Source: a bacterium (GTDB lineage Bacteria; Myxococcota_A; UBA9160; UBA4427). Taken from it: 64,000 bases of DNA. Within the stretch, counting starts at the first letter, position 1, and each line of letters starts with the position of its first letter. The position numbers were made by a program, and so were the translations under genes. Below are positions 18,824-49,033 of this stretch, in pieces. The stretch lies in contig JANSYR010000008.1 of assembly GCA_024742285.1 (NCBI GenBank), forward strand, positions 124,001 through 188,000. Direction: 5' to 3'. The notes beneath the pieces are model-generated. The model did not search any database. It worked only from the letters and a program-made list of their open reading frames with translations, and was not told the origin of the DNA.

Positions 18824-19774
18824 ATGACCCGAACAACACGCCGCCACTTTACTCGACTGCAGATTGCCCTTCTCGCATCAATGGCCGTCGCTTGCCATTC
18901 CGCGGTCGAAGAAGGACAGGCAGAGCAGGACCACGAGGGCGAAGGGCATGAAGAGGAGCTTGTTCTCTCCGACGCCGAACTCGAGGAGTTTGGCATCGCG
19001 CTCGCCACAGCAGGCGCCGGCCGCATCGCGAAAACCGTAGAGCTACCGGGCGAAATACTTCCGAACCAGGACCGTGTGGCGCACATCGTTCCGCGCTTTC
19101 CGGGCGTCGTAAAATCAGTTTCGAAGGCCATCGGCGATACCGTCAAACGAGGTGACTCGCTCGCGTCGGTCGAGAGCAGCGAGAGTCTGTCCACCTACGC
19201 CGTCAAGTCTCTGCTCGAAGGCGTCGTCATCGAACGACATGTCGCCGTCGGCGAGTCCGTGACTACCGCGCGAGAGCTCTTTGTCGTCGCGGACCTGAGC
19301 GAAGTCTGGGTCGATTTCCAGGCCTTTCAGAAGCACCTCCCTTCCCTTCGAGCCGGCCAGCAAGTGCACATCTCAGCCGGTCACGGATTGCCTGAAGCAG
19401 AGGCGTCCGTCAGTTACATCTCGCCCGTCGTCGATGAATCCACGCGGACGGCCACGGTGAGAGCGGTGCTTCCGAACGAAAAGGGCGATTGGCGCCCTGG
19501 CCTGTTCGTGACTGGCCGCGTCGAAACAACCTCTGTCGACGTCCCGATTGCCGTGCCGCGTTCTGCCATCCAGACCGTGGGTGAAGTGCCGGTGATTTTC
19601 GTTCGAGACCACGAGGGCTTCGAACCGCGTCCGGTGCACCTAGGCCAAAGCGGACCTCACTTCGTCGAGGTCTCCGATGGGCTCGCCGCAGGCGACGTCT
19701 ACGTCTCAAGTGGGGCCTTCACTCTCAAAGCCGAGCTCCAGCGCGGAGAGCTCGGCGAAGGTCACGGGCACTAG
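18824..19774 (+). CDS. RND periplasmic adaptor (CzcB-like)
   Basis: A 316-residue membrane-fusion protein. A signal peptide is followed by a Cys (MAVACHSA) that may be lipidated. Next is an acidic, His-containing linker (EQDHEGEGHEEEL) suited to metal binding. The barrel-sandwich region includes RFPGVVKSVSKAIGDTVKRG and the beta-barrel region YISPVVDESTRTATVRAVL. The C-terminus is His-rich (GEGHGH). It links the inner-membrane pump to the outer-membrane factor and may hand metal to the pump. Tight spacing on both sides (1 and 2 bp) shows a single operon. Confidence 0.9.
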   Translation: MTRTTRRHFTRLQIALLASMAVACHSAVEEGQAEQDHEGEGHEEELVLSDAELEEFGIALATAGAGRIAKTVELPGEILPNQDRVAHIVPRFPGVVKSVSKAIGDTVKRGDSLASVESSESLSTYAVKSLLEGVVIERHVAVGESVTTARELFVVADLSEVWVDFQAFQKHLPSLRAGQQVHISAGHGLPEAEASVSYISPVVDESTRTATVRAVLPNEKGDWRPGLFVTGRVETTSVDVPIAVPRSAIQTVGEVPVIFVRDHEGFEPRPVHLGQSGPHFVEVSDGLAAGDVYVSSGAFTLKAELQRGELGEGHGH

Positions 19775-34631: not shown

Positions 34632-34950
34632 ACTGTGACCATTTCATCCCCCGTATTCCCACTCATTCCGCCCTATTCCGTCTCGGAATCTCCTAACCCC
34701 TTGTTTTTCCTAGACCCCGTATAAGGCTTCGAACCTGAGGGTCGGGGGTTCGAATCCCTCCCGGCGTACCATTCTTTTTCAAGCACTTAGGTCGGCTCTT
34801 GTTAGGCCCCTGTCTTGGGTAGCCTGATGCTCTACGGGATCCGGCCCGAACGGCCGAGCGGATTTCGCTTCAGTTCGAAGTACTTGCGAACCGACCTCGC
34901 TCGCGTTCGTTGCCTGCGTTTGGACACGATCGGTCACGCGCGGGGCACAT
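34632..34950 (+). repeat. tRNA-3'-half att-like repeat, copy A
   Basis: Left arm 34632-34720 begins ACTGTGACCATTTC and includes spaced ATTCC direct repeats. The tRNA-like core is 34721-34771: anticodon loop CTTCGAA, stem CCTGA, variable GGGTC, T-stem/loop GGGGG-TTCGAAT-CCCTC, acceptor CCGGCGT, discriminator A, CCA. The right arm (34772-34950) contains CAAGCACTTAGG, GTTAGGC at 34801 and GTAGCCTGATGCTCT. There is no D-arm or 5' acceptor strand, so it is not a working tRNA gene. It is shared with copies B to E in the same orientation. It probably marks the right end of the ICE. Confidence 0.85.
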
Positions 34951-35463
34951 ACCGCGTCGGCCGAACCCCGAAAGGCCGGTAAGGCATTCAACGCGCTGTG
35001 TCTATCGCGGGATCGTCCCGGGTCATGTCGTAGTGGAGCAGGCCGGGGATCTCGGCGGAGACGCCGACGCAGTCGATCACGTCGAAGAGCGCCGTGTCGT
35101 CGTCGGCGCCGAGCACGATTTACTTCGCGACGCGCGGATTCACGAACTGCATCACGCGCACCAGCTGCACGGCGATCTGTGCGCGCATCTACAGCGGGCT
35201 CGGGCGCTGGCCCTCGTGCAGGTGGTGGCGGATAAGGCATTCAAGGCGCGTTTTCGCCACCACCGATATCTACGCTTCTGACAACTGGCGTCCCGGCGGG
35301 GAGGAAACGGCCCTTACCGGGGCGATTTCAAGGTTGCGCGCGGGCGGGCTGCGGGCGATCGGCGTTCGCCCGCGGGCGCGGTGCCGTCGGGGCGAACAGG
35401 TCCCTGGCCGCGACGCGAGTCGAGCAGATCGGGCAGGCGCGGGGAGCCTTGAAAGCCACCGTC
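34951..35463 (-). other. Decayed fragment region between copy A and the IS91-like transposase
   Basis: No intact gene. On the minus strand between about 35190 and 34995, an open stretch interrupted by one TAA reads RAQIAVQLVRVMQFVNPRVA, then DDDTALFDVIDCVGVSAEIP. It looks like a remnant of an unidentified coding sequence. At 35277-35320 a segment starting TCTGACAACTGGCG resembles segments at 47536 and 48949 and may be a mobile-element end. Confidence 0.35.
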
Positions 35464-37302
35464 CTATTCAGACTCCGGGCCCGACTGATCGAAGTCGAAG
35501 CCCGGGTCGTCGCCCCAGTCGAGCTCGGAGGAGGGCTCGTCGAAGCGTCCCTCAGCTCGAGGCTTCGAGGCAGCCAGCGGCGGGGCTCGTGACGGCATCT
35601 TCAGGCAGTCCAGGATGCGACGGGCCACGTCCGGATCCGTGATCGCCGAGAGGACCCGCATCCGAGCGCCGCAGCCGGGGCAGCACAGCGCGTCGACCTC
35701 GAAGACGCGCTGGAGAAGATCGGCCCAGGCCGTTCGACGCGAGTCCCCACGTCTGTCCGTAGGCGCCCGCGTCGCCGCCGACGACCGCTCACCCTCGGTG
35801 GCGCGCACATCCGGCATGGGCGACTCGGTCGGAAGAACCACAGGTAGAGACCCATCGTCGACTCCACCCGGGCCCGACCAGACCTGCGTCCCTGTCGAAA
35901 GCGCCCCCGGCTCCCCAGAGCTCGAACTTCGTCTCGCTCCGACGCCCAGTTCGAGGGTCGGATCGACGCCGCCCACCATCGATCGCCCGGCGACGACGAC
36001 CTGATCTCGCCCTTCCTCTACAGGCCCCGGCACCACCCGATCCCGTCCACTCGCGCACGGGGCCAGCACCCCGTGGTATCGAACCTGATGCGCTCGCGGA
36101 GGCGGAACCAGCGGTGCCAGGCGCTCGAGCAGCTCCGTCCGCTCCATCACGACGTGCGTCGTCCCGTCCCTCCACGGCGTCTTGAGTCGATAGGCGAGCC
36201 GTCCGTCATGCATCTCCTCGAGCCGCTCGAGGGCCAGCGGCGGACGTGCCACGTAGCGACACAGACGCTCGAGCCGACGACGATCCCTTGCCGGGACCGC
36301 CACGTCGGCGTGCAGGCTCATCCCGCCGTGGCGGACACAGCGCGGCGGGATCCCGGCCCCGGGCTCGACGCCGTCCTCTTCTTGATCGTCGAAGCCGGGA
36401 TCGACCCGATCCCCGAGCCGCCGCCACGGTTCACCGGCCTCCGGCCCTGTCGCGATCCGGGAACGGATCGACGCCGCAGTGAGCATCGCCAGCAGCGGCT
36501 CGTCCTCGGCCAGGCGATCCTCGCCTTCCTCGATCCCCAGAGCCTCGAGCTGTCGGCGGATCCGCCGGGCCGTCCCCGCCAGGACGCGGGCCACGTCGTC
36601 AGTCTCGGGCGGGTCGAGCGCGCGGAAGCGGCCGGGCGTTCTCGCGCCCCCCTCGTACACCCCGTCGAGCACGAGCGCATGGAAGTGCGGCGTCAGGTTG
36701 AGGGCCGAGCCGAAGCGCTGGATGAACGTGACCGAACCGCACGCCCCGCCCCGCACCCCGAAGTCCCGCTTCGCGCGCCGTCGGTAGTCTGCGAACATGG
36801 CGCGCAGGAAGCCGCGCAGCACCTCGCTCGTGAGCCGCGCGTTCCAGGCACAGCGATACCGGAGCGGATAGGGAAGTGTGAGCACCCACTGGCGGACGGG
36901 CACTTCGGGAAGGACCCGATCGACGAGATGGGCGGCCGTATCCGCCATCCTGCGCCCGCCGCAGGACGGACAGAAGCCACGCCTCTTGCATGAGAAGGCG
37001 ACGAGCCGATCGTGGCCGCAGGCGTCGCAGTGGACGCGCAAGAAGCCGCGGGTGAGCACGCCGCACTCGAGATACGCCCGGATCTCCCGCTCGACGAAGC
37101 GCGCGACGGGCGCACCCGCCGACCGGGAGCGTTGGAGGAACGACTCGAGGTCTTCGCGCACGACGCGGTGGAGGAGCGTCTTCTCGGGCTCGTGGCGTTC
37201 GTATTCGATGAGGACGGCGCCCGCGAGACCGGGACGGAAGCCATTTCCATACGCAAGCCGTGTGCCCAAGCAGGGCGAGCGGTATGCCGTGTCGCAACGC
37301 AT
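35464..37302 (-). CDS. IS91-like HUH transposase
   Basis: A 612-residue rolling-circle-type transposase. An N-terminal Cys cluster (residues 92-114: CDACGHDRL, SCKRRGFCPSCGGRR) forms a zinc-binding domain. The catalytic HUH pair is His206/His208 in LNLTPHFHALVLDGV. A candidate nucleophile Tyr350 lies in LCRYVARPPL. A second Cys motif near the C-terminus (ALCCPGCGARMRVLSAITD) is also typical of this family. The frame is intact. First Met is at 37302. Element ends were not defined by eye. It sits inside the cassette between att-like copies A and B. Confidence 0.88.
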   Translation of the reverse strand: MRCDTAYRSPCLGTRLAYGNGFRPGLAGAVLIEYERHEPEKTLLHRVVREDLESFLQRSRSAGAPVARFVEREIRAYLECGVLTRGFLRVHCDACGHDRLVAFSCKRRGFCPSCGGRRMADTAAHLVDRVLPEVPVRQWVLTLPYPLRYRCAWNARLTSEVLRGFLRAMFADYRRRAKRDFGVRGGACGSVTFIQRFGSALNLTPHFHALVLDGVYEGGARTPGRFRALDPPETDDVARVLAGTARRIRRQLEALGIEEGEDRLAEDEPLLAMLTAASIRSRIATGPEAGEPWRRLGDRVDPGFDDQEEDGVEPGAGIPPRCVRHGGMSLHADVAVPARDRRRLERLCRYVARPPLALERLEEMHDGRLAYRLKTPWRDGTTHVVMERTELLERLAPLVPPPRAHQVRYHGVLAPCASGRDRVVPGPVEEGRDQVVVAGRSMVGGVDPTLELGVGARRSSSSGEPGALSTGTQVWSGPGGVDDGSLPVVLPTESPMPDVRATEGERSSAATRAPTDRRGDSRRTAWADLLQRVFEVDALCCPGCGARMRVLSAITDPDVARRILDCLKMPSRAPPLAASKPRAEGRFDEPSSELDWGDDPGFDFDQSGPESE

Positions 37303-37479
37303 CGACCCGTCCAGTCCTCACGTCGAGACGAGCCGCCCGGGGCAGACGAGGCCTCGAGTTCACCCGTTGCCCGTGAACCCGGGTCGGCGCCAGGCGCCCT
37401 CTTCCCGCCTGCTACCCTCTGCGGTCAGCGCGGTCAGAATGTCCAGGTCGGACCCTCCGACCGCGAAGCCGGAGTGCAC

Positions 37480-37674
37480 ATGAAACTCGCCATCGAACTC
37501 TCCGACGAGCAGGCGAACCGACTGCGTGAAGGCGCAGACCGCCTCGGGATCGAGCCCGAGCAGCTCGCGCTCGCGGCCGTGATGGATCTGATCGCCTCCG
37601 AGGGACCCGATTTCGATTCCGCGGCGACGCGGGTACTCGAGAAGAACCGGGAGCTCTACCGGCGCCTTGCGTGA
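37480..37674 (+). CDS. Antitoxin of a Phd/Doc-like module
   Basis: A 64-residue protein (MKLAIELSDEQANRLREGAD) of ribbon/helix-type character, with a hydrophilic helical C-terminus. It lies directly upstream of a Doc-like toxin gene, and its TGA overlaps the toxin's GTG by four bases, the standard antitoxin-toxin coupling. It would neutralise the toxin and probably autoregulate the pair. The family assignment is by length and context, as sequence motifs are weak. Confidence 0.7.
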   Translation: MKLAIELSDEQANRLREGADRLGIEPEQLALAAVMDLIASEGPDFDSAATRVLEKNRELYRRLA

Positions 37675-38075
37675 CGAGATACCTCTCGCTTCGTGAGATT
37701 CTGACCCTGCACGAACGGATCGCGGCCGGCTCCGGAGGGGGCATCGGCGTGCGCGATCTCGGGCTGCTCGAGTCTGCGATCGCGCAGCCTCGGCAGAGCT
37801 TCGACGGCCAGGACCTCTACCCTTCGATACTCGACAAGGCCGTCGCGTTGGGATTCTCGCTGGTCTCGAATCATCCCTTCGTCGACGGCAACAAGCGTGT
37901 GGGCCATGCGGCGCTCGAGGTCTTCCTGGTTCTGAATGGGCACGAACTCGAGGCATCGGTCGATGAGCAGGAACGAATCATTCTTGCGGTCGCAGCCGGT
38001 GAGATGAGTCGAGACGACTTTTCGGCGTGGGCCGAGCGCCATGTCGTGGAGATGACATCCGACGGCGAGACGTAG
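37671..38075 (+). CDS. Doc-type toxin (Fic-fold kinase)
   Basis: A 134-residue protein from GTG 37671. The signature HPFVDGNKRVGHAALEVFL matches the Doc branch of the Fic fold (HxFx-D-x-NKR), whose members phosphorylate EF-Tu and halt translation. The N-terminal segment (YLSLREILTLHERIAAGSG) and GVRDLGLLESAIAQP are also typical of Doc proteins. Catalytic residues all appear present. It is coupled to the upstream antitoxin gene. As the last genes before att-like copy B, the pair could stabilise the cassette against loss. Confidence 0.9.
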   Translation: MTRYLSLREILTLHERIAAGSGGGIGVRDLGLLESAIAQPRQSFDGQDLYPSILDKAVALGFSLVSNHPFVDGNKRVGHAALEVFLVLNGHELEASVDEQERIILAVAAGEMSRDDFSAWAERHVVEMTSDGET

Positions 38076-38112
38076 TCATCACGCGTCGGCAGACACTCTT
38101 CGACCTCGTTCC

Positions 38113-38313
38113 ACTGTGACCATTTCGCACCCCGTATTCCCGTGCATTCCCGCTCATTCCCGTTCGCGATCTCGTAAGTGCCTGTCTTTCCTAGACCCCG
38201 TATAAGGCTTCGAACCTGAGGGTCGGGGGTTCGAATCCCTCCCGGCGTACCATATAAATCAAGTACTTAGAGATGTTAGGTGGGTGAGCCTCAGGTTCTC
38301 ATGACTGAGGCTC
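38113..38313 (+). repeat. tRNA-3'-half att-like repeat, copy B
   Basis: Left arm from 38113 (ACTGTGACCATTTCGC) with ATTCCCG repeats. The core at 38202-38252 is identical to copy A from ATAAGG to CCA. The right arm begins ATAAATCAAGTACTTAG with GTTAGGT at 38275, then diverges from the other copies. A 9-bp perfect hairpin, GAGCCTCAG / CTGAGGCTC (38286-38294 and 38305-38313), follows. Confidence 0.85.
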
Positions 38314-38544
38314 GGTGACGAGCGAAAGAGCTCCCCCCCCGAATTCTTCAACAATTCCGTCAACTTACGCTGCGGCCGCTTCGAGGCGCGCGAGATCAAT
38401 CGCGACGTTGCGGACGGCCCTAGACGGTCCTCCGCCATTAGCGGACATTTTGGACAAGGCAGGAAACGCGGCCCTCCAGGTCCGGCAGTCGAGACCTGGC
38501 TTTCGTCCTGGACCTAGTCTCGCGCGCTTGCAGGAGAAATTGAC

Positions 38545-39102
38545 TTGACCACAAGAATGACACGCCGCCGCTTGCTAGAAGCTGGGGCCGGGGCCGCATT
38601 CGTCCTCGGAGCCGGCCCGCTCATTTTTGCATCAGATACGACCCACGGAGGAAAGATGAAGCTCAGAGGAATCAATCGAATCATGGTTGCGGTGCGCGAC
38701 CTGGAAGAGTCCAAGAAATTCTACTCAGAACTCCTTGGCGCCACGTTTCACGAGGCGAATTGGACAGGTACCGCGTTCGGTATTGATGTTGCGATCAGCT
38801 GGGATGCTGGAATCGAGCTCTGCGCGCCAATGGTAGGTCGAGAGAAGGACAGCGTGGTTTCGCAGTTTTTAGATACGAACGGCGAAGGCGTGATGAACGT
38901 CTTTATTGGCGTCGGTGACGCAAGCGCAGCAAAGGCACGAGCTGAAGCGGCGGGCGTCGAAGCATTCCACTCTCTCGACTACACACAGGATGAAATCGAC
39001 GCCCATCTAGACGGTTTGTTCCGAAAGTACGAAGAGCACAACCTGAACTCGGCCGCGAAGTGCGGCTTTGCAATCACGTTGGCCCAGATCGACCCCAAGT
39101 AG
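38545..39102 (+). CDS. Tat-exported VOC (glyoxalase/bleomycin-resistance fold) protein
   Basis: A 185-residue protein. A twin-arginine-type leader (TRRRLLEAGAGAAFVLGAGP) is followed by a vicinal-oxygen-chelate domain (INRIMVAVRDLEESKKFYSE, GVMNVFIGVGDASAAKARAE). TTG 38545 is spaced 8 bases from AGGAG; ATG 38557 is the alternative start. Candidate metal ligands cannot be assigned with certainty. It heads the second cassette and is followed 33 bp later by a SnoaL-like gene, suggesting a small catabolic or detoxifying unit acting in the periplasm. Confidence 0.75.
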   Translation: MTTRMTRRRLLEAGAGAAFVLGAGPLIFASDTTHGGKMKLRGINRIMVAVRDLEESKKFYSELLGATFHEANWTGTAFGIDVAISWDAGIELCAPMVGREKDSVVSQFLDTNGEGVMNVFIGVGDASAAKARAEAAGVEAFHSLDYTQDEIDAHLDGLFRKYEEHNLNSAAKCGFAITLAQIDPK

Positions 39103-39135
39103 AACGACCAAGGCCGAGCACATCGGGAGAATGCA

Positions 39136-39642
39136 ATGCCGGAAAACAATGCAGCAATTCAAGAGTTGTTGGACAAGAAAGCCTGCGAGGAGCTGCTTGC
39201 TCGCTATGCATGTGCGCTGGAGTGGATAGACGAAGAGGCGCTCAGGGCCGTCTTCTTTGCGGACGCGGATGTCGACTACGGATTTTTCAAGGGTCGAGGA
39301 GACGAGTTTGTTCCCGCGATGATGGCGCAAATTCGGGGCTGCCTAAGGACATGGCACAATAACGGCACTCCGCTTCTCCGAATCTCTGGGGATGAGGCGC
39401 AGGCGGAAACACACGGCACGGGAGCAACAATCGTCGAGATAGATGGCCAGACGGTGACTAGTCTCCTGGGCGGGCGTTACCTGGACCGGTTGGAACGCCG
39501 TGATGGAGCGTGGGGGATTGCGAAGCGCGTGTACGTCGTTGATTGGCACCAGACAATAAGCAGGGATTCTGCGACCGAAGCCCTTCCCGGGATGAACATG
39601 CTGATGCCCAGCGCTGAACATTCGTTGTATCGACGTCTATAG
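39136..39642 (+). CDS. SnoaL-like (NTF2-fold) protein
   Basis: A 168-residue single-domain protein with the alpha+beta barrel features of SnoaL-like/bile-acid-dehydratase-type proteins: KKACEELLARYACALEWIDE, LRAVFFADADVDYGFF, and a closing ERRDGAWGIAKRVYVVDW. Acid-base residues are not certain. No signal peptide is visible. It follows the VOC gene closely and is probably cotranscribed. Likely an isomerase, dehydratase or hydroxylating accessory protein of small-molecule metabolism. Confidence 0.75.
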   Translation: MPENNAAIQELLDKKACEELLARYACALEWIDEEALRAVFFADADVDYGFFKGRGDEFVPAMMAQIRGCLRTWHNNGTPLLRISGDEAQAETHGTGATIVEIDGQTVTSLLGGRYLDRLERRDGAWGIAKRVYVVDWHQTISRDSATEALPGMNMLMPSAEHSLYRRL

Positions 39643-39739
39643 AATCGCGTTCTTGGCCTCGGTTTGACGCCAATTCTAAGAACTTGGAGGCGGAGATCGT
39701 GACAGTCAAACGAGAGAGCGGCCTGGGCGCGCGGACTTT

Positions 39740-40280
39740 TCCCGCACCAGTTCTCTCGGCTCATCGACAATCCTGTCCGCCGTCTAGTGTTGCGTCCCGA
39801 GACGCTTGCGGACCGGCTGCCTCTGTTGGGCTGAAGCCGAATTCTTGAGCTTGGGCCCGGTTCCGGCTACTTCAGCCCGGTTCTCGCCGCTCGTATCCCA
39901 ACGGGTCGCCTCGAACTCCTTGACCTTCAGCCCGAGATGTTTGCGACAGAAAATTTGAACTTCAGAGGCGGGGCTTTGAGAACGTCGGCTACGCGACCGG
40001 AAACGCTGGCGACGCACTTCCTTTCCCCGATTCCCATTTCGATGTGGTCTTCATTTCGAGTGTTCTGGGTGAAGTTCCCGATAAGGAGCGCTGCATCCAC
40101 GAGCTCCACCGAGTCCTTCCCGCGACAGGAACCTTGGCGATTCACGAATCGATTCCGGACCCCGACCTGATGCGGCGAGGCACGTTGCGCGAGCTTGTTG
40201 AATCCCACGGTTTCGAGTTACTGCAGACGTGGGGTCCGGGATGGAACTACACCGCGAACTTTGCGAAGGCGGTTCGTTGA
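39740..40280 (+). pseudogene. Class I SAM-dependent methyltransferase, broken
   Basis: The first part reads LIDNPVRRLVLRPETLADRL, a TGA at 39832-39834, then RILELGPGSGYFSPVLAARI (SAM-binding motif I) and LELLDLQPEM. Near 39960 the frame shifts, after which GFENVGYATGNAGDALPFPD, FDVVFISSVLGEVPDKERCI and a C-terminus to 40280 follow. One nonsense codon and one frameshift are enough to explain the damage. It is probably the decayed third gene of the cassette. Confidence 0.8.
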
Positions 40281-40563
40281 GCCCGGGGCACGTCACCCCA
40301 TGATTTGCAGTTCTACATCCCTAATTGAATCAGTTGCCAGGAACGTGGCGCGCGCCGCCAATTCGCAATTCGCGGTCTTGAGGCAAAGCCGTTTCACGGG
40401 CTATTCATCCGCGATGGGCGCCCAATTTTACCGAGAGATTTTCGAATTCCAGGGACCGTCTACGGCCGTCAGGGCCGTCTATCCGACCGCTCCATGCCGC
40501 TGTACGCCGCTCTGTGCCGCGCCCACGACGTAACTCATTGATTTCCGTCATCCTCGGGTGATT
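40281..40563. other. Noncoding stretch before copy C
   Basis: No gene seen. Unlike copies A, B, D and E, this stretch shows none of the conserved left-arm sequence before the tRNA-like core. It contains short CCGTC/CCGCT-type simple repeats near 40460-40520. Confidence 0.5.
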
Positions 40564-40669
40564 CTTCGAACCTGAGGGTCGGGGGTTCGAATCCCTCCCG
40601 GCGTACCATATGATTTCAAGTACTTAGGTCGCTTCCTGTTAGGCCCCCGTTCCAGGTAGCCTGGTGCTC
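40564..40669 (+). repeat. tRNA-3'-half att-like repeat, copy C (no left arm)
   Basis: The tRNA-like identity begins exactly at the anticodon loop (CTTCGAACC, 40564) and runs to CCA at 40608. The right arm matches the other copies (TTTCAAGTACTTAGG, GTTAGGC at 40638, GGTAGCCTGGTGCTC). Upstream sequence is unrelated to the left arm of the other copies. This fits a junction whose left partner was a different element. Confidence 0.85.
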
Positions 40670-40932
40670 AAGCGAACTGCAAGCGTGCTGCCTCGAAGTT
40701 GCCCAACCAAATCGCGCACTTGCTGCCACATAGGCGCGAGTCGCACGGCGCCTCTTGGTCACAGATGGTCACAATCGCGTCGCAACGCCGGTCGCGCAGT
40801 ATCACCAGTTTCGCCGGCGCCACCGCCATCGGCCCGAAGTGCTGCCCCTCGCGAAGCAGAACAGGCGGCGGTTCCCGTCTTGACAAGCGTTAGGCCGCCA
40901 CCGGACAAGTAACCTCGACGGGAAAGATCGCC

Positions 40933-42120
40933 TCAGCTGGACGAGCCACTCGGGGAGAGTTCGATGATCCAGCGCGGAACAAACGGTTGATTGGTCGCGA
41001 CCGCACCCTGAATCCGATCAACCCGATAGCTTCGATGCGCTCCCGTATCCGCGCGCTCGGCATGCAACAGGACGTTTCCGGATCGGGTCCGTCGCAAACT
41101 GTACGGCTCGATGCGGCGCACGCTTCCCTGATAGGTCAAATCCACGCAGAGATGATTCGCCGCGGCAAATCGAATGGCCTGCAGAGGATGCGAGCCGAGA
41201 CCTCCGACAGTCGCCCCAATGGCGGGGCGCAACACGACATCGCCATCCGCCAGGGAGTACGGCTCCGGAAGTGGCACACGCTCTGGCGTGTGGAGCCATT
41301 CGAAGAAGTCCGAAAGGGTCGACCAGAACGATTCGAACGGAGGGAGCTCGGGGAGCTGATGCGCGAGCATCGCCTCCCATTGTGCAACAATTGCCTCCCG
41401 CGCACCTCCTACCGATTCGAGCGTCGGCACCTGAAGGCCCTTGAACTCACACTTCTCGGAAAGCACGCGCAACACATCCCCTGCCCGCTCGCGCGCCTCC
41501 GGACGACGGAACAAGTGAACGACATCATAGAGGTCGCGCGCACGGCCCCGATCCCCGAGCGCGCGCGTCTTTTCGGCGAACACCTCGACGTAGGGATAAG
41601 CAAGCACGGCCATCCCACTCGCTGGACGGTCGCTGTACTCATGACTGATCGGAAGCCGTTCGGGGGTTTCCACCAGCAGTTCGTCTGCGGTGAGATCGAA
41701 TTTGACGCGTGGCATCGCACTCGCTGGAAGGCGCAACGGTCCGCGGTAGTACACCCGACCTTCAACCGAAGCGTGGCCCCTCGGATTCGTTCGCACATCG
41801 AAGCGCAACCGTTCTTCTGGGATCTCGAGGCCGACTTCGTCGTAAAGCGACGCCGCGATCTCTCGGAAGACACCAGTGAGGTAGCCCGAGTCGAGCTGCG
41901 CTTCGTCTCGAAGCGTGAAATCGAGATCTTCCGAGAATCGGTACGTCTCGAAGTGAATCTTCTTGAGGCACGTGCCCCCTTTGAATACCCATTGTTCGGC
42001 CAGCTCGCGGTGGTTCCCTATCGCGTGAAGAAGCCAACCGAGCACATAGTCCTTCTCGACAACCGTGGGTTCGAGCGAAAGGATGCCGGCCCGTTCGAGG
42101 ATCTCTTCCTTGTCAATCAT
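40933..42120 (-). CDS. AbiEii-type nucleotidyltransferase toxin with C-terminal WYL-like domain
   Basis: A 395-residue protein from ATG 42120 (MIDKEEILERAGILS). The N-terminal 260 residues match AbiEii/AbiGii toxins: EKDYVLGWLLHAIG, then WVFKGGTCLKKIHFETYRFS and EDLDFTL with the acidic catalytic residues. The C-terminal 110 residues look like a WYL domain (LQAIRFAAANHLCVDLTYQG, VRRIEPYSLRRTRSG, HRSYRVDRI), which in other defence proteins senses a ligand. AbiEii-type enzymes transfer nucleotides to tRNA or other targets and stop growth. The start overlaps the AbiEi-like stop by 8 bp. Confidence 0.85.
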   Translation of the reverse strand: MIDKEEILERAGILSLEPTVVEKDYVLGWLLHAIGNHRELAEQWVFKGGTCLKKIHFETYRFSEDLDFTLRDEAQLDSGYLTGVFREIAASLYDEVGLEIPEERLRFDVRTNPRGHASVEGRVYYRGPLRLPASAMPRVKFDLTADELLVETPERLPISHEYSDRPASGMAVLAYPYVEVFAEKTRALGDRGRARDLYDVVHLFRRPEARERAGDVLRVLSEKCEFKGLQVPTLESVGGAREAIVAQWEAMLAHQLPELPPFESFWSTLSDFFEWLHTPERVPLPEPYSLADGDVVLRPAIGATVGGLGSHPLQAIRFAAANHLCVDLTYQGSVRRIEPYSLRRTRSGNVLLHAERADTGAHRSYRVDRIQGAVATNQPFVPRWIIELSPSGSSS

Positions 42121-42916
42121 GCGTGCTGAACATCCATGACTCAGGGACACGAAGTCGCCAACGCGTTACGATTCGAGGACAGGGAATGGACGAATCGAGT
42201 TTCGCAATACCCTGAGTGAGGGCATCGCGGCACGAATCGAGCTGCAAAGGACTCGCTATCGCCGCGCGCTCGAGTAGGAAACCCAAACGTTTGAAGACGG
42301 CGCCATTCCCAACCTCCTCCGCAACTTCAATCAGGCGATCGAGATCCGCGCGCGGCGAGGCCGCGTATTCTTCAAGACAATCTGAAACGTGCTGGATTCC
42401 AGGACCCGCACGCGGTTGAGCGAGCATGTCAATCAGCGTTCGCTCGGCATCGGAAATCGGGACGCGGGTTGAGCCCACCCAATGCGTGCGAATCCCACTT
42501 GTCTCATCGCTCGATGATGGAAAGACTGCGTAGGTGGCACCGCCTCTCGCGAGCTTTCGACTTCGACCGGGCGCGAAGACACAGACGTCGCGAAAGATCT
42601 GCTCTGTTAGGTCCCAATGATGCGCGGCTGTCCAACCCCCGACGTATCCCCCAGGCAGCAGATGCGGCACGACTATCCAGGGCTCCTCGATCGGGGTATC
42701 CGCGTGCACCCGGTCGAGCGGAATCGGCGCGTAGTGGCCACGCTGGACGCGCCTCAGCCAACCTTGCTCCGCCCAACGCGCCAGACGCTTCGCGGCTGCT
42801 TGGCGCCCGAGGCCCAGCGTTCTCGCTGCGCCTTCGACGGTGATCCAACCGTCATGAGCACGCAGCAGACGGGAGAGATCTTCTCGAGACCTTGAGGTAC
42901 GCAGTGGCCGATTCAT
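42113..42916 (-). CDS. AbiEi-type antitoxin/repressor
   Basis: A 267-residue protein. The N-terminal winged helix (GWITVEGAARTLGLGRQAAA, then KRLARWAEQGWLRRVQRGHY) resembles AbiEi antitoxins. The C-terminal part has the family's WTAAHHWDLTEQIFRDVCVF and ISDAERTLIDMLAQP segments. AbiEi counteracts AbiEii without binding it and represses the operon. The gene is upstream of and overlaps the toxin gene, the normal order. An AT-rich region with an inverted repeat lies just upstream. Confidence 0.88.
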   Translation of the reverse strand: MNRPLRTSRSREDLSRLLRAHDGWITVEGAARTLGLGRQAAAKRLARWAEQGWLRRVQRGHYAPIPLDRVHADTPIEEPWIVVPHLLPGGYVGGWTAAHHWDLTEQIFRDVCVFAPGRSRKLARGGATYAVFPSSSDETSGIRTHWVGSTRVPISDAERTLIDMLAQPRAGPGIQHVSDCLEEYAASPRADLDRLIEVAEEVGNGAVFKRLGFLLERAAIASPLQLDSCRDALTQGIAKLDSSIPCPRIVTRWRLRVPESWMFSTHD

Positions 42917-42960
42917 AGTATATTGATCGTATCGTATATCTCATAAAATGAGAATTAGGA
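42917..42960 (-). promoter_or_regulatory. AT-rich promoter/operator of the AbiE-like pair
   Basis: An AT-rich stretch just upstream of the AbiEi-like start. It contains the inverted repeat TCTCATAAAATGAGA (42939-42953) and TACGAT-type -10 candidates on the minus strand. AbiEi proteins bind inverted repeats in their own promoters, so this is a plausible operator. Confidence 0.5.
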
Positions 42961-43108
42961 TACGCCTCATATACTTTAAACACACCCGGGGGAAATCGAA
43001 GACCAGCGCCATACACCGATGATTCGAGAGAATGTCGAATTCGCAGCGAAAAGCTTGGGTGACAGGAGCGTGGGAGCACACGGGTTTTCCTGCCGACTTC
43101 CGCCGCAG

Positions 43109-43425
43109 ACTGTGACCAATTCATACCCCGTATTCCCGCTCATTCCGCCCTATTCCGTCTCGAAATCGTCTAAGTCGTTGTTTTTCCTAGACCTCGTATA
43201 AGGCTTCGAACCTGAGGGTCGGGGGTTCGAATCCCTCCCGGCGTACCATATATATCAAGTACTTGGAACCACGCTGTTAGGCCCCTGTTTCGGGTGGCCT
43301 GATGCTCTTTGGGATCCGACCCGAACGGCCGAGCGATTTTCGCTTCGATACGGGGGACTTGCGTACCGTCCTCGTTCGCACTCGTTGCCTGAGCTTAGAC
43401 ACGATCGGTCACGATTGGGGCACAT
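43109..43425 (+). repeat. tRNA-3'-half att-like repeat, copy D
   Basis: Left arm from 43109 (ACTGTGACCAATTC) with ATTCC repeats, core 43198-43248 identical from ATAAGG to CCA, and a long right arm to 43425. The right arm parallels that of copy A (CAAGTACTT, GTTAGGC at 43276, GGCCTGATGCTCT, CCCGAACGGCCGAGCG, GACACGATCGGTCACG). The full unit is 317 bp against 319 bp for copy A. Confidence 0.87.
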
Positions 43426-43656
43426 GTCCCATTGCGCGAAAACGCGGACGGCGAGTGAGATATGCGAGGCGCGTTCTCGGTACTGCCGATACCCGCGTTT
43501 TCTACGCGTGCGTCCCGCCTGGAAGACACTCTTCTTCCTAGGTCGACGAGACCCGCGGAAAGACGGACCTCGGCAGCCTCCTCCAGGTCGAGATACCTAT
43601 GATCATCCCGTGTGGCGTCGTAGACTTGCGGGCGCAGAATTTCGCCGACGCGGTGT

Positions 43657-44427
43657 TCAGCGGGGCACCATACCACCGTCGGCGAACACGACGTGCCCCG
43701 TGATGAAGCTGCCGGCATCCGATGTCAACATGAGCGCCGGCCCGACCATCTCGTCGGGATGGGCCTTGCGCTTCTGGATCTGGATCGAGGTCATGACGTC
43801 TTGCGCCTCACTGGAGTTCGCACGGACCATGTCGGTGTCGACCGTCCCCGGGCTGAGTGCATTGACCCGGATGCCGAAGGGCTCGAATTCGGCGGCCATC
43901 GATCGGGTCGCGGACATCAGCGCGGCCTTCCCCATGCCGTAGAGAGAGATCGTCGACGAGAAGAGAAATGCCGCCCCTGTCAGGACATTGAGAACGCATG
44001 CGTGCTCGCTCTTCTTAAGATGCGGCAGCGCCTCTTGGATCAGGAAGACGGGACCGCGCAGGTTGACCTCGAGCGACTTGTTCCAGGCTTCCGTCGTGTA
44101 GCTCCCAGCGTTCTGCGCAAGTGCGGTTGCGGCGTTGTTCACGACGACGTCGATTCCGCCGAAGGTGTCTACGGCCTGCTCGACGAGGCTGGCGAGGTCG
44201 CCGAGTTCGCCCATGTGGGTCGGGACGCCGAGCGCCTCGCCGCCCATCGCGCGGAGGTGCTCCTCGGTCTCCTTGCACGCCTCGGGCTTCCGACTCGCGA
44301 CGACGACCTTCGCACCTGCGGCGACGTAGCCCTCGGCGAGGGAGCGGCCGATTCCGCGCGTGCCTCCGGTGACGAGGACGACGCGATCCGTCATGTCGAA
44401 GAGTCCCTGCAACTTTTCCCGGTCCAT
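43657..44427 (-). CDS. Short-chain dehydrogenase/reductase
   Basis: A 256-residue classical SDR. The cofactor motif TGGTRGIG is near residues 20-27. The structural motif is NNAA, the catalytic YGMGK (SLYGMGKAALMS), and the C-terminal loop PGTVDTDMVRA. Length is normal. Arg residues after strand 2 (VVASRKPEA) suggest NADP(H). It oxidises or reduces an unknown alcohol/ketone. It lies downstream of the TetR gene on the same strand, in the fourth cassette with a VOC and a dioxygenase-like gene. Confidence 0.92.
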   Translation of the reverse strand: MDREKLQGLFDMTDRVVLVTGGTRGIGRSLAEGYVAAGAKVVVASRKPEACKETEEHLRAMGGEALGVPTHMGELGDLASLVEQAVDTFGGIDVVVNNAATALAQNAGSYTTEAWNKSLEVNLRGPVFLIQEALPHLKKSEHACVLNVLTGAAFLFSSTISLYGMGKAALMSATRSMAAEFEPFGIRVNALSPGTVDTDMVRANSSEAQDVMTSIQIQKRKAHPDEMVGPALMLTSDAGSFITGHVVFADGGMVPR

Positions 44428-44588
44428 CTCTCTGCTCTCCTTTGGCGTCCGATTGCGAGGCGACCGCTATGCGATCTCAGGCCACGTTCCCGTTACACAG
44501 ACGAACGCGAAGGTTCGCGCGAGGATGCCCCATGAAGACGTCGACTCCGACCGAGATGGCCATCGTGCCCTCCTCTCGCGTGTCGTCT

Positions 44589-45305
44589 TCAGTCCCTTCG
44601 GGCATCGCTTGCTCGTCCGCCTCGTGTTCGGGCGTTTCGAAGGGATCGTGGCCTCGGCGCATAGGCGTCGATCGCAGACTCCTTCAACCCGAGCCCTCGA
44701 CCACAGAAGAGAACCGCTTCGCGGACCAGCTTGCGCTTGGATCCGGCGTAGGGAATCGCCGAGGCGCCCGATAGCGACCCCGAGCTGATCATCGAGCCAA
44801 CGTGCTCCAGGAAGTTCCAGGCGTTCTTGGGGTCGACTGCGACCCGGTCGAGGCTTCCCTCACTCGCCGCCGCACGAAGTGCTGCGGAAAAGGCATCTGC
44901 CCCGATCTCCTGACCGCGCCCGTAGATCGTTTTCGCGTGCTGACCGTCGCCGGCGAGGGAGAGGAGCAACATCCGCTGTCCGACGGCGGGGGGCGAGTCG
45001 GGTACGAGATGAACGCAGGCGTCGAAGTATCGCCAGAGCATCTCGACCAGTCCCTGCGTCGAGGGCTCGGGCAGCTGCAGAACGGAGAAGTTGTGGTCTT
45101 GCTCCCGCGCGACGCGTTCGAGCACCGCCTCGTGCAAAGCCCGCTTGGACGGGAAGTGCTGGTAGAGGAGCGCTTCCGAAATTCCGGCCGACTCGGCGAT
45201 CTCACGAGTGCGGGCGCCGTCGAATCCTTTCGCCGCGAAGGCCGCCGTTGCTGCTTCGAGGATGGAGCGGCGCCGATCCGCGTGTTTCAGTCGTTGGGTA
45301 GGCAT
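44589..45305 (-). CDS. TetR-family regulator
   Basis: A 238-residue regulator from ATG 45305 (MPTQRLKHADRRRSILEAAT). An in-frame ATG at 45326 lies inside the palindromic operator and is less likely. The N-terminal helix-turn-helix is typical (TREIAESAGISEALLYQHFP). The C-terminal ligand-binding domain is Ala/Leu-rich with a polar tail. It is transcribed divergently from the VOC/dioxygenase genes, with a perfect 14-bp palindrome between them, so it should repress those genes and itself until a small ligand binds. Confidence 0.9.
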   Translation of the reverse strand: MPTQRLKHADRRRSILEAATAAFAAKGFDGARTREIAESAGISEALLYQHFPSKRALHEAVLERVAREQDHNFSVLQLPEPSTQGLVEMLWRYFDACVHLVPDSPPAVGQRMLLLSLAGDGQHAKTIYGRGQEIGADAFSAALRAAASEGSLDRVAVDPKNAWNFLEHVGSMISSGSLSGASAIPYAGSKRKLVREAVLFCGRGLGLKESAIDAYAPRPRSLRNARTRGGRASDARRD

Positions 45306-45315
45306 GACAGTTTTA

Positions 45316-45329
45316 TAAGTGTACACTTA
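45316..45329. promoter_or_regulatory. TetR-type operator
   Basis: Perfect palindrome TAAGTGTACACTTA, 11 bp upstream of the TetR start and about 135 bp upstream of the VOC start. The length and symmetry suit a TetR-family dimer. Confidence 0.75.
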
Positions 45330-45463
45330 CTTATCATCGGAGTTCAACCCCGACGCGCTACGCGAACGCCGCTCTTCATCGCGGCCCGCTCCGCATGCCG
45401 CAAGTGAGCGCGAAGCGAGATGGATCAGGTCGGATACGCCGAACTCACCTTGGAGGTCATCGA

Positions 45464-45892
45464 ATGACAACGACCAACGACACCCGCTTCGGCTTCGCGA
45501 AGCTCATCGTCGACGACGAGGAGAAGCTCGCGACCTACTACGAAGAGGTCTACGGACTCGGCGTGGTGAACCGCGTCGAGGGCGAGGCGGGCGGACTCGG
45601 CGAGCCCTTCCGCGAGATCATGCTCGGGCGGAACGGAGAGCTGACCCCGAACGAGTCGCTCGTCCTGTTCAAGTTCGTCGACCGAGCGACGCCCCGCGAT
45701 CAGGAGTCCATCCTCGGTTTCATCAGCGAAGACCTCGACGCCCTCGCAAATCGCATCACCGACAACGGAGGGAGCCTCAACGGGCCGATCCAATCGATGC
45801 CCGAGCACGGCGTCCGCGTGCTCTTCGCCACCGATCCGGAGGGGCACCTGAGCGAGAACGTCGAGCTCATCCCCACCGAGAACACCGAGTAG
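45464..45892 (+). CDS. VOC-family (glyoxalase-like) protein
   Basis: A 142-residue protein from ATG 45464, with GGAGG upstream. A single vicinal-oxygen-chelate domain is evident: RFGFAKLIVDDEEKLATYYE, SLVLFKFVDRATPRDQ, and EHGVRVLFATDPEGHLSENV. The last motif is typical of lactoylglutathione-lyase-like proteins. No export signal. It lies 15 bp upstream of a dioxygenase-like gene and is divergent from the TetR gene, so it is probably induced with its neighbour by a compound the cassette degrades. Confidence 0.85.
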   Translation: MTTTNDTRFGFAKLIVDDEEKLATYYEEVYGLGVVNRVEGEAGGLGEPFREIMLGRNGELTPNESLVLFKFVDRATPRDQESILGFISEDLDALANRITDNGGSLNGPIQSMPEHGVRVLFATDPEGHLSENVELIPTENTE

Positions 45893-45907
45893 AAAAGGAA
45901 GTAACCC

Positions 45908-46972
45908 ATGAACATCGAGCAAGCGAAAGTCCTTCGTCCCGTCGCCCCGCCGCGAATCATCGAAGACGCCTACACCGAAGATCAGCACGCGAGGCTCCTC
46001 GACCTGGTACGACGGGACGGGCCGTGGCCGCTCATCGTCGCCCATCACTTCCAGTCCGCCGAGGAGCTCGTCGCGACGACGTCCGGGGCGATACCCGAAG
46101 GCGTCGAAGTCTCGCTAGACATGTTCCTCACACCCGTGTTCCGAGGCTTCCTCTCCCACGACGGAATCTGTCTGTATCCGGAGATCCAGGACTGCTTCTA
46201 CAACCCACGCTTCCTCGACCTCGTTCGCGACTACTGGGGAGCGAAGTACGCCGAGCCGGAGGGGATGCTCTTCAACATCCAGGGCCCCTGCTCGGGCGGA
46301 GGGTCCCCGCACCTCGACGCCACGCGGTTCCGGGGGATCTCACTCGACAACACGCCCGTCTGGCTGATGAACACGATGGCGAAGTCGGGTCTCTTCAAGC
46401 GCTGGCAGGCGCGCAAGTCGCAGATCGTGGCCTGGTACTACCGAGGACGGATCGGCGGCGGCTTCGTCTATTGGCCCGACGGGCCCCACGAGCAGCCGAC
46501 GACGCTTCGCGCGCCGATGTGGGGCCGGGCCGCGGTCGTCGAGAACGAGATGATGTTCCACTCGGCCCAGTCGTGCGGCGCCCCGGCGCTGCGCAAGCCC
46601 GAGGGTCTCGCCTTCCATTCCCTGATGGGGCCCGATCCCGAGTCCGAGGGGGGCTGGCGCATCACGACCGAGGGCGAGGTCATCCAGCGGGTCCCCGAGG
46701 ACGAGTTGCGCTTCCTCGTGCATTGGGGCGCCAACGTCTACATGGACCTGGACGAGCTGAAGCTCTTCGCCGACCACACCGACGACCTGACGCACGAGCG
46801 CGTTTTCGATGTCTTCCTCGAGGATCTCAAGAGGCGCAACGTCGACTTCGATCCGCCGTCCGACCCGCTGACGGACACGGCTTTCATCACGCTGCTCAAC
46901 GAGGTCTACGGCATCGATCGGCCGCTGATCATTCCACCGGAGCCGGAGGAGGAACGCGGGATCGCGGCGTGA
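45908..46972 (+). CDS. Phytanoyl-CoA dioxygenase-like non-haem iron protein
   Basis: A 354-residue protein. The probable iron triad starts with His and Asp in SPHLDATRF; a downstream His, perhaps in MMFHSAQSCG, completes it. The overall pattern fits Fe(II)/2-oxoglutarate-type dioxygenases of the PhyH sort, but the distal Arg for 2-oxoglutarate is not certain, so an unrelated cupin-like oxygenase is possible. It is cotranscribed with the VOC gene. With the SDR and TetR genes it forms a four-gene oxidative catabolism cassette. Confidence 0.65.
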   Translation: MNIEQAKVLRPVAPPRIIEDAYTEDQHARLLDLVRRDGPWPLIVAHHFQSAEELVATTSGAIPEGVEVSLDMFLTPVFRGFLSHDGICLYPEIQDCFYNPRFLDLVRDYWGAKYAEPEGMLFNIQGPCSGGGSPHLDATRFRGISLDNTPVWLMNTMAKSGLFKRWQARKSQIVAWYYRGRIGGGFVYWPDGPHEQPTTLRAPMWGRAAVVENEMMFHSAQSCGAPALRKPEGLAFHSLMGPDPESEGGWRITTEGEVIQRVPEDELRFLVHWGANVYMDLDELKLFADHTDDLTHERVFDVFLEDLKRRNVDFDPPSDPLTDTAFITLLNEVYGIDRPLIIPPEPEEERGIAA

Positions 46973-47030
46973 GTTGCGGCGACTCATTCGGCCGGGAGTT
47001 CGACGGCGAGCCGCGTGAAGTCGGCCTCAC

Positions 47031-47176
47031 ACTGTGACCATCTCGCACCCCGTATTCCCGCGTATTCCGCCCTATTCCCGTTCGGGATCTCGTAAGTCCC
47101 TGTTTTTACTAGGGGCCGTATAAGGCTTCGAACCTGAGGGTCGGGGGTTCGAATCCCTCCCGGCGTGCCATTCAAG
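47031..47176 (+). repeat. tRNA-3'-half att-like repeat, copy E (left arm and core)
   Basis: Left arm from 47031 (ACTGTGACCATCTCGC), core 47120-47170 as in the other copies but with GCGTGCCA instead of GCGTACCA. The right arm is cut after CCATTCAAG at 47176 by an IS-like segment. Its probable continuation resumes at 49034. Confidence 0.85.
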
Positions 47177-47279
47177 TCAGGGTGAACCGCCCGGGGAATC
47201 CCGGAGGCGGTGGCCTGCCCCCGCTTTCACGTGGGCGTCGAACTGGAATTCGCTGTCATCATCGTGATCCGACGACGAG

Positions 47280-47390
47280 ATGGCACGAGAGAGAGACCCG
47301 GTAGAGTATCGCCGTCGGGTGATCGACCGGGTCGAGGGACTTGCGCTTCCGTCCCGTACAACACGGCAATGCGCCGCCCCTAACCCTTGA
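47280..47390 (+). pseudogene. Possible IS3 OrfA relic
   Basis: A 36-codon frame starts ARERDPVEYRRRVIDRVEGL, which resembles the beginning of IS3-family OrfA proteins (PVEYRRRxVxL), then loses the pattern and stops. It is about 100 bp inside the left inverted repeat, where OrfA would start. The segment 47391-47520 shows nothing further. Confidence 0.4.
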
Positions 47391-47520
47391 ACGAATCCCC
47401 AAGGACGAACCCGCGAGCCAGGCGGCTTGGTTCATCGAGTTCCATGAACACCGCGGCCGAGTCTGGCCGTGCTCCGCCGAAGACCTCCGCGCGGCCGCGC
47501 TTTCCATAGAACCCTCTCGG

Positions 47521-48480
47521 TCAACCCGCTCCGTTTCGTTTGGGTCCCACCGGGGAGGAAGCGGCCCCTTCCGGGCGCAGCGAGACGACGCCCATCAAGA
47601 GCGCCAAGAGACACACCAGCCACGCGCCACGCCACCCCAGGCTCGGAACCGGGGTCGGGGCCGCGACGGCGTCGTAGTACTCGACGATCTCCTCGTCGAT
47701 CTGGAAGCTCGTCGCACTGATCGTCGCGAAGCCGCCGCCGTGAAGGAACTCAGTGGGCGCGACGCCATCGGCGGCCGCGATCGAGAGGCTGACCTCCTCC
47801 TCGGAGAAGCCCTGGATCGAGATCGAGCCCGTCGCAAGCTGAGCCGCGCGATCCAGAAAGAGGTCGAGATCGAAAATCGCTCCGCCGAGGAGTGCGTTCG
47901 CCTCGGCCGGAGTGAGATCGAGGGTCGAAGCGGTGGTGGGACCGAACAACTCGAAGAGCTCGAGTCGAAGCGAGGCGGATTCCGTCGCGCCGCTGCGAAC
48001 CATCAGGACTGTCATCGTCACACGATAGACGTCGGCGCCATCGACGTGCGTCGATCGCATCGACGCGAAGCCGCTCCCATCCCCGACCATCTGCGTTCCC
48101 GCGAACCTGCCTCGCATCCCGATATCGCCGAGCCCCCAATTCGTGGCGTCGACGACCGTCACCTCGGAGATCGGAAAAGGCAGCGGGAAATCGAGCGTCA
48201 CCAACCCTCTTGCCACGCCGCCGATCAACTCCGGCGCTCCGGCCCCGGTGGTCCCATCGGTCAGGACATCTTGACCGATCTGTCCCCCGAGCCCCAGGAG
48301 GTCGATATCGGGTACGGTTGGATAGCCGGTCTCAGCGTCGAAGTCTTCCAGGTAGACGCGATCGGCGAGCGCGAAATCCAGCGCGGCCACGTCACCGGGA
48401 ACTGCGACGAGCAGACCCAGGACACAACTGGAGACCGCGGTCCGGCGCCATCCTCGAATACAGCTTGCGAAGTCTTGCAC
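47521..48480 (-). CDS. Secreted protein with PEP-CTERM-like/VPxxGWRG C-terminal sorting tail
   Basis: A 319-residue exported protein. GTG 48480 is preceded by GGAGGGACTC, whereas the far ATG at 48651 gives an implausible leader. The N-terminus has a signal peptide (AVSSCVLGLLVAVPGDVAA). The body is beta-rich with no recognised domain. The C-terminus, PTPVPSLGWRGAWLVCLLAL, has a short motif, a hydrophobic helix and basic residues, as in exosortase-type sorting tails. It sits within an IS3-like segment, so it may be passenger DNA. Confidence 0.65.
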   Translation of the reverse strand: MQDFASCIRGWRRTAVSSCVLGLLVAVPGDVAALDFALADRVYLEDFDAETGYPTVPDIDLLGLGGQIGQDVLTDGTTGAGAPELIGGVARGLVTLDFPLPFPISEVTVVDATNWGLGDIGMRGRFAGTQMVGDGSGFASMRSTHVDGADVYRVTMTVLMVRSGATESASLRLELFELFGPTTASTLDLTPAEANALLGGAIFDLDLFLDRAAQLATGSISIQGFSEEEVSLSIAAADGVAPTEFLHGGGFATISATSFQIDEEIVEYYDAVAAPTPVPSLGWRGAWLVCLLALLMGVVSLRPEGAASSPVGPKRNGAG

Positions 48481-49007
48481 GAGTCCCTCCGTATTCGAAT
48501 CGGTCGCCGGCGGACGCGCGATCGAGTCGTGGGTGTCGGAAGCGAAGATACGCAGCGATGCGAATGGAATAGCGTGACAGCAGCGCTGCCTCCTCGCCAC
48601 CCGCTTTCGGTCGGCAGCGGCGATCGGAGGCGAACGCTGGAGGGATCGCATGCGACGCCTCGGCGCTCAACGACCGATTCTAGACGGCTGCTTCCCGGGG
48701 ACTTCGTGCGGCGATTCCCACCGACGCGCTCTTCGCTGTAGCTGCTTACGGCACGACGCCCGGGTGGCTTCGCGCTCTTCTTCACACACGCCGTGCGGCC
48801 CGCGAAACCGTTCCGAGATCCGACCCAGATCGACGTCCTCCGAAGTCGGGAATCGCCTCTCCTCCGGCGCACTTTGCACACCGTCCCACCGGATCATGGC
48901 GGCTAGGAAATAGACGCTGGGCTTTCGGCGCCTTCGATGGCTGCGGTTCTGACAACTTTCGTTCCGCCGGGGAGAAAACGGCCCTCGACTCAACCAAGAG
49001 AGTCTCT
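48481..49007. other. No supported gene
   Basis: Holds the promoter side of the secreted-protein gene. Several short overlapping frames are open on both strands, but none has a motif or convincing start. The segment at 48949-48986 (TCTGACAACTTTCG...) is similar to segments at 35277 and 47536 and may be a mobile-element end. Confidence 0.4.
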
Positions 49008-49033
49008 GGAATTCCCGGTGTGGTTCACCCTGA

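Follow-up and report, generated by a model that had tools for sequence, protein, structure and literature searches.

Several systems of genomic islands and other stacked elements already described resemble the locus considered here. The Islander survey counts 2083 of 3919 islands as anticodon-centred (PMC4383910), and the anticodon loop has been described as a 7-bp overlap region (PMC8371274). Like Islander islands, the elements described below would restore the tRNA gene, leave a displaced 3' fragment at the far border and use exchange at the anticodon loop; in Islander, however, each tandem member needs its own integrase and tandems of at least three members number four (PMC4383910), whereas here four successive elements have none that we could detect. 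A second relative is the set of ssrA islands of Dehalococcoides, where multiple islands stand in tandem within 100 kb behind one RNA gene and repeats of the RNA 3' end carry a conserved motif just upstream, both as in our array; 15 of those islands are without an integration module, so that integrase-less members occur there as they do here (PMC3146451). The Dehalococcoides site is in the T loop of ssrA and is served by a serine recombinase (PMC3146451), in contrast to the anticodon-loop site and tyrosine integrase of the present array, which also has two arm groups with 10-bp repeats.

Two further systems are instructive. As in the accretion of CIMEs with ICEs and IMEs (PMC5704250), integrase-less elements bounded by att sites stand in tandem where a target gene has its 3' end; unlike CIMEs, the elements here are small (2.4-3.9 kb) and have no detected integrase remnant. 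The array also works like the integron cassette arrays called CALIN, with head-to-tail cargo, one recombination site and no integrase, but its site is half a tRNA and is found beside ordinary tyrosine integrases (PMC11389934). Literature searches on tandem tRNA-Arg islands in Myxococcota and on integrase-less tandem arrays gave no evident description of this array, which is a new example of a known process, tandem accretion at an anticodon-centred tRNA site, in an apparently uncultured lineage of Myxococcota.

The stretch of DNA analysed, called the window below, is 64,000 nt long (G000:C8:124001-188000) and belongs to a 6.5-Mb genome in 56 contigs. On its + strand CTTCGAACC occurs seven times, against 0.93 expected, a number reached by 0 of 100 shuffles. 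Five of the seven matches run on as CTTCGAACCTGAGGGTCGGGGGTTCGAATCCCTCCCGGCGTRCCA and are called copies A to E (Table 1); the remaining two, at 19618 and 30151, are unrelated to these. Each of the five is 45 nt long and corresponds to the 3' half of tRNA-Arg(TCG), beginning with the first anticodon-loop base and ending with CCA. The loop is the 7-nt CTTCGAA, the following CC belonging to the stem. The copies are arranged head to tail, all five on the + strand in the orientation of the intact tRNA, and the half is identical in A to D, with a single substitution in E. Rfam and ARAGORN detected nothing over the window; the intact tRNA-Arg(tcg) gene is at G000:C8:90043-90119 (+), with copy A 68.7 kb downstream on the same strand. 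The start-to-start spacings from A to E are 3481, 2356, 2640 and 3922 nt.

Judged from their sequence, the half-tRNA copies are the attachment sites of a tandem array of tRNA-targeting elements. We give a probability of roughly 85% to the reading that site-specifically integrated elements stand in tandem behind tRNA-Arg(TCG), copy C being the border between E2, of arm group II, and E3, of arm group I. Every element would carry the tRNA 3' half from the anticodon loop on; insertion would restore the tRNA gene and leave a half-tRNA at the far border, and each copy would be the right end of one element joined to the left end of the next. Because the sequence left of the loop is then the element's own arm and that to the right is tRNA, identity on the left stops at the loop. 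Strand exchange by the integrase would span the 7-bp loop, and the inverted core sites would be supplied by the anticodon stem. New elements may enter at the tRNA or at any half-copy, and the small elements may be moved by integrases acting in trans, or in cis from neighbours.

Table 1. Features of the tandem array, in window coordinates.
Feature	Position	Strand	Remarks
Copy A, half-tRNA attachment site	34727..34771	+	border of 68.6-kb upstream island and E1
Copy B, half-tRNA attachment site	38208..38252	+	border of E1 and E2
Copy C, half-tRNA attachment site	40564..40608	+	border of E2 (arm group II) and E3 (arm group I)
Copy D, half-tRNA attachment site	43204..43248	+	border of E3 and E4
Copy E, half-tRNA attachment site, one substitution	47126..47170	+	border of E4 and a further element, E5
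E1	34772..38207		IS91-like transposase (35464-37302 -), Fic family protein (37671-38075 +)
E2	38253..40563		glyoxalase-like (38545-39102 +), SnoaL_4 (39136-39642 +)
E3	40609..43203		AbiEii-like (40933-42150 -), AbiEi-like (42113-42916 -)
E4	43249..47125		short-chain dehydrogenase (43657-44427 -), TetR (44589-45326 -), glyoxalase-like (45395-45892 +)
E4, fourth ORF	45908-46972	+	without Pfam match
Group II right-end arm of E2, the left flank of copy C (~100 nt)	40464..40563	+	homologous to G058 and G033 arms; right-end matrix
Three 10-bp repeats CTCCATGCCG CTGTACGCCG CTCTGTGCCG, proposed arm-type integrase sites	40490..40519	+	
GTAAC motif at -34 from the loop	40530..40534	+	
E2 18-nt inverted repeat, left arm	38413..38430	+	17/18 match
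E2 18-nt inverted repeat, right arm	40453..40470	-	

What distinguishes copy C from its neighbours? The original prediction was that A, B, D and E have in common a left arm running through GTATAAGG and that the identity of copy C with the others begins at the anticodon loop, and both statements are borne out: the shared arm (family D2, 159 nt) is 77-85% identical among the four and absent from C, which reads GGTGATT left of the loop and has 0 nt in common with the others to the left of CTTCGAA. The intact tRNA has GCATCAGG where A, B, D and E have GTATAAGG, so no copy's left arm is tRNA sequence; tRNA-derived identity starts at the loop in all five, A, B, D and E adding AGG. That the left side of copy C is unrelated to the other arms, as had also been claimed, is correct for the overall sequence, with z values of 1.4, 0.1, 4.3 and 1.5 against A, B, D and E (shuffles for these values, for the matrix and for the periodicity below keep base composition, not dinucleotides), and incorrect for the plan, the 10-bp repeats and the TAA motif at -34 being alike.

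Across a set of 56 non-redundant arms, the segment from 35 to 85 nt left of the loop has a period of exactly 10, with z 11.3 at lag 10 and 4.8 at lag 20, the other lags from 5 to 19 remaining within 1.7. G[TC]AA[CG] begins at -34 in 19 of the 56, and all five window copies have 10-bp repeats, [CG]TAA[CG] exactly 34 nt before the loop, and the loop itself. We infer that the repeats are arm-type integrase sites set in a row at intervals of one helical turn. Such a row would be comparable with the P' arm of phage lambda and its contiguous sites.

The arm of copy C recurs elsewhere. A pattern made of its last 15 bases plus CTTCGAACC, allowing up to 3 mismatches, was matched in 4 of the 90 genomes of the class, and the reversed control in none. 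The matches are the window's own, one in another family (G058, 1 mismatch) and one in another genus (G014, 0 mismatches); a match in G027:C140 with 3 mismatches was set aside as a chance hit, since no tRNA sequence follows on its right. In G058 the homology spans the whole arm, and in G014 it is confined to the loop-adjacent part; over 100 nt the G014 arm scores 54, equal to the shuffle maximum of 54. Compared with the 67 other arms that have enough sequence, the arm of copy C gives z 18.8 and 11.3 (G058 twice) and 9.9 (G033, in a third family). The named records in which a GATT-type end adjoins this core are, for six of six stretches, MAGs of Myxococcales, Myxococcota or Deltaproteobacteria.

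When the right ends of 14 elements are scored against one another in a matrix, two groups separate. Group I takes in E1, E3, E4, the C8 island, two elements of G047 and one of G007; group II takes in E2, two elements of G058, one each of G060, G020 and G033 and, weakly, the element on contig C6. Group I scores are 24-145 within the group and at most 22 against group II, with a maximum of 25 in 588 shuffles, a rough yardstick for right-right scores since the shuffles pair left ends with reverse-complemented right ends; by that maximum the group II scores of E2 with G060 (22) and with G020 (23) are at noise level. The left and right ends of E2 have an inverted-repeat score of 31, above all 588 shuffles, which marks E2, judged by its ends, as a coherent element of a second kind. 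The E2 left end against the inverted right end of the second G058 element, G058b, scores 29, also above the shuffle maximum.

One might think that copy C, the sole copy of the five in the window with a different left arm and with identity starting exactly at the loop, is a chimera, in which exchange at the loop has swapped a group I left side for that of another element type. We consider this very unlikely, as the arm is a conserved element end found at the same loop junction in other genomes, the two ends of E2 belong together by the inverted repeat just described, and att-site recombination re-pairs whole elements and would not unlink the two ends of one. In the original prediction copy C was a recombinant junction between two element types; two types do meet there, but the arm is an intact group II end elsewhere, so the special recombinant falls away. 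By its sequence, copy C is an ordinary border between two element types, not an aberrant one.

Where does tRNA identity stop in other genomes of the class? A pattern that requires the loop matched 66 of 90 genomes. As this first collection required the loop, a pattern lying 3' of it, in the T arm and acceptor, was also run and matched 62 of 90; merging the contexts from both gave 168 distinct sites, whose classes depend on the mismatch cut-offs chosen. The 66 sites classed as tRNA-Arg appear to take in some tRNA-Arg(TCT) genes, and the 68 classed as half-copies contain at least one other intact tRNA (L130). The 134 T-arm-anchored sites comprise 60 tRNA-Arg, 1 other tRNA, 41 ungapped half-copies from the loop, and 32 that have only the T arm or an indel. 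Of the 41 half-copies, 15 have 0 nt of identity left of the loop, 24 have 1-5 nt and 2 have 10-11 nt. Agreement with the tRNA is 0.95-1.0 in the loop, drops to 0.61-0.78 over positions -1 to -4 and is down to 0.46 at -5; that the 5' stem agrees in part fits a role as inverted core site.

The 32 T-arm-only or indel sites are a mixed class: 6 have the loop 18-19 nt upstream, a shift of one or two bases; 8, whose variable region contains an insert, have it 35-77 nt upstream; 4 have their sole loop match 92-110 nt upstream, possibly that of a neighbouring copy; and 14 are without a loop. The 73 T-arm-anchored non-tRNA copies contain a tRNA-Leu (L222) and L215, which ARAGORN calls as tRNA-Arg with a long variable region. 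The loop is kept in 55 of the 73. The other 18, which take in the tRNA-Leu and the 89-bp tandem repeats of G069, are a real exception to a sharp stop at the loop. The G069 repeats (L219:1500-1800, G069:C163) each end in the T arm and acceptor of this tRNA and have a GC-rich inverted repeat in front. Half-tRNA copies in three other genomes, L113:3702 (G020), L133:732 (G048) and L136:759 (G004), have hairpin-rich inserts in the T loop, past which T-arm or acceptor sequence resumes.

These breakpoints bear on the place of exchange. A tyrosine integrase exchanging strands in the anticodon loop had been proposed from the window, and the sharp left limit at the loop fits; junctions from other genomes, to which the proposal had also looked, cluster at the loop and the adjacent 5-nt stem, apart from the 18 of 73 that break elsewhere. 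The exchange might instead fall outside the loop, within the T arm or at another point along the 45 nt, the loop being simply where retained homology ends on the left. The shared sequence does extend over 45 nt, and in 32 of the 73 non-tRNA copies the best agreement starts at the variable region and runs to the right, or indels precede that region. We hold this to be unlikely, however: the partly conserved 5' stem fits inverted core sites around a 7-nt overlap, and the tandem arm repeats and the -34 motif stand at a fixed distance from the loop. Exchange at the loop is what we infer, though sequence cannot place the two cleavages within the 45 shared nt.

On a different account, homologous recombination or segmental duplication spread the half-tRNA copies and decay set the left limit. 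Some flanks are indeed related, the left ends of E1 and E4 being 81% alike over 166 nt, and the 18 copies of the class with other breakpoints would suit such a process. But the cargo of E1 to E4 differs, the 45-nt half is identical in A to D though the arms diverge, the left limits found in different families gather at the loop, and integrases sit at the tRNA end. We consider duplication and decay very unlikely, slightly less probable even than a chimeric copy C.

Which enzymes might move these elements? A 430-aa tyrosine integrase is encoded at C8:90054-91346 (-), in antisense overlap with the intact tRNA; its integrase domain matches PF00589 (E 4.3e-29, C8:90270-90791 -), and contig C8 has no further PF00589 match. 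A protein-pattern scan of genome contigs with this integrase found no relative. About 21 residues at its C-terminus are the tRNA 3' half read antisense (G000:C8:90054-90119; L011:4054-4119), and since the tail is encoded within that half, excision would alter the C-terminus of the protein. The C6 and G058 integrases have similar C-terminal tails over their own sites. In E1 to E4, 16 integrase queries from the same genome gave no match, so that each of the four has att sites at both ends and no integrase match. As regards descent from a complete ICE or IME by deletion, integrase remnants were likewise not detected in E1 to E4, but fragments are present in G047 and G020 intervals. The 26 intervals between neighbouring sites in the fetched stretches include 20 without an integrase match, and at lengths of up to 10 kb the figure is 17 of 20; in the six with a match the gene is at the left end, on the opposite strand.

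Integrase type agrees with arm group in the three complete elements, C8 (I) and C6 and G058a (II), the C6 and G058a integrases being 49% identical over 201 residues. An exception is G047a, where group I arms adjoin a fragment related to the G058 integrase, and the correspondence between integrase type and arm group is therefore not a clean one. The C6 element is an integrase-bearing one of 11.3 kb between half-tRNA-like sites (G000:C6:56890, 68206, 79212). The fetched C6 stretch has no intact tRNA, and the locus is possibly a secondary integration site. We considered whether C20:432 is the clean, unoccupied counterpart of the C6 element and rejected this, since C20 and C6 are 97% identical over 219 nt on the right and only 71% over 462 nt on the left; with a left side of that kind, the pair cannot bound the exchange from the right. 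A tblastx step in this comparison gave no match.

What might such an arrangement amount to? It is conceivable, though we would not bet on it, that tRNA-Arg(TCG) is the dock of an integron-like system in this uncultured Myxococcota class. Integrase-less cassettes of 1-4 kb, with standardised arms (three 10-bp repeats, a fixed -34 motif and an anticodon-loop core) in two or more arm groups, would be shuffled in trans by different integrases sharing one core, giving mixed arrays like A to E. One tRNA core with two arm groups separates recognition of the core from recognition of the arms, and offers a map that can be tested. Those island finders that demand an integrase for each member miss tiny integrase-less arrays, which may thus be under-counted. 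The cargo, with an AbiE-like toxin-antitoxin pair, a Fic-family protein and glyoxalase-like genes, is of a type that such arrays could spread.

The toxin-antitoxin pair of E3 (40933-42916) is AbiEii/AbiEi-like, and its AbiEii-like protein matches a WYL domain at the C-terminus. No right border was seen for E5 or for the array as a whole, and a search for the native flank downstream, made with ORFs of six genomes of the family, gave no shared border. Inside the left end of E5 is a 1.86-kb stretch (window 47177-49033) with 30-nt inverted repeats at its edges that are 83% complementary; an ORF within it may encode a PEP-CTERM-type exported protein, which it resembles, and the element-end sequence of E5 picks up again after the stretch, at ~49034.
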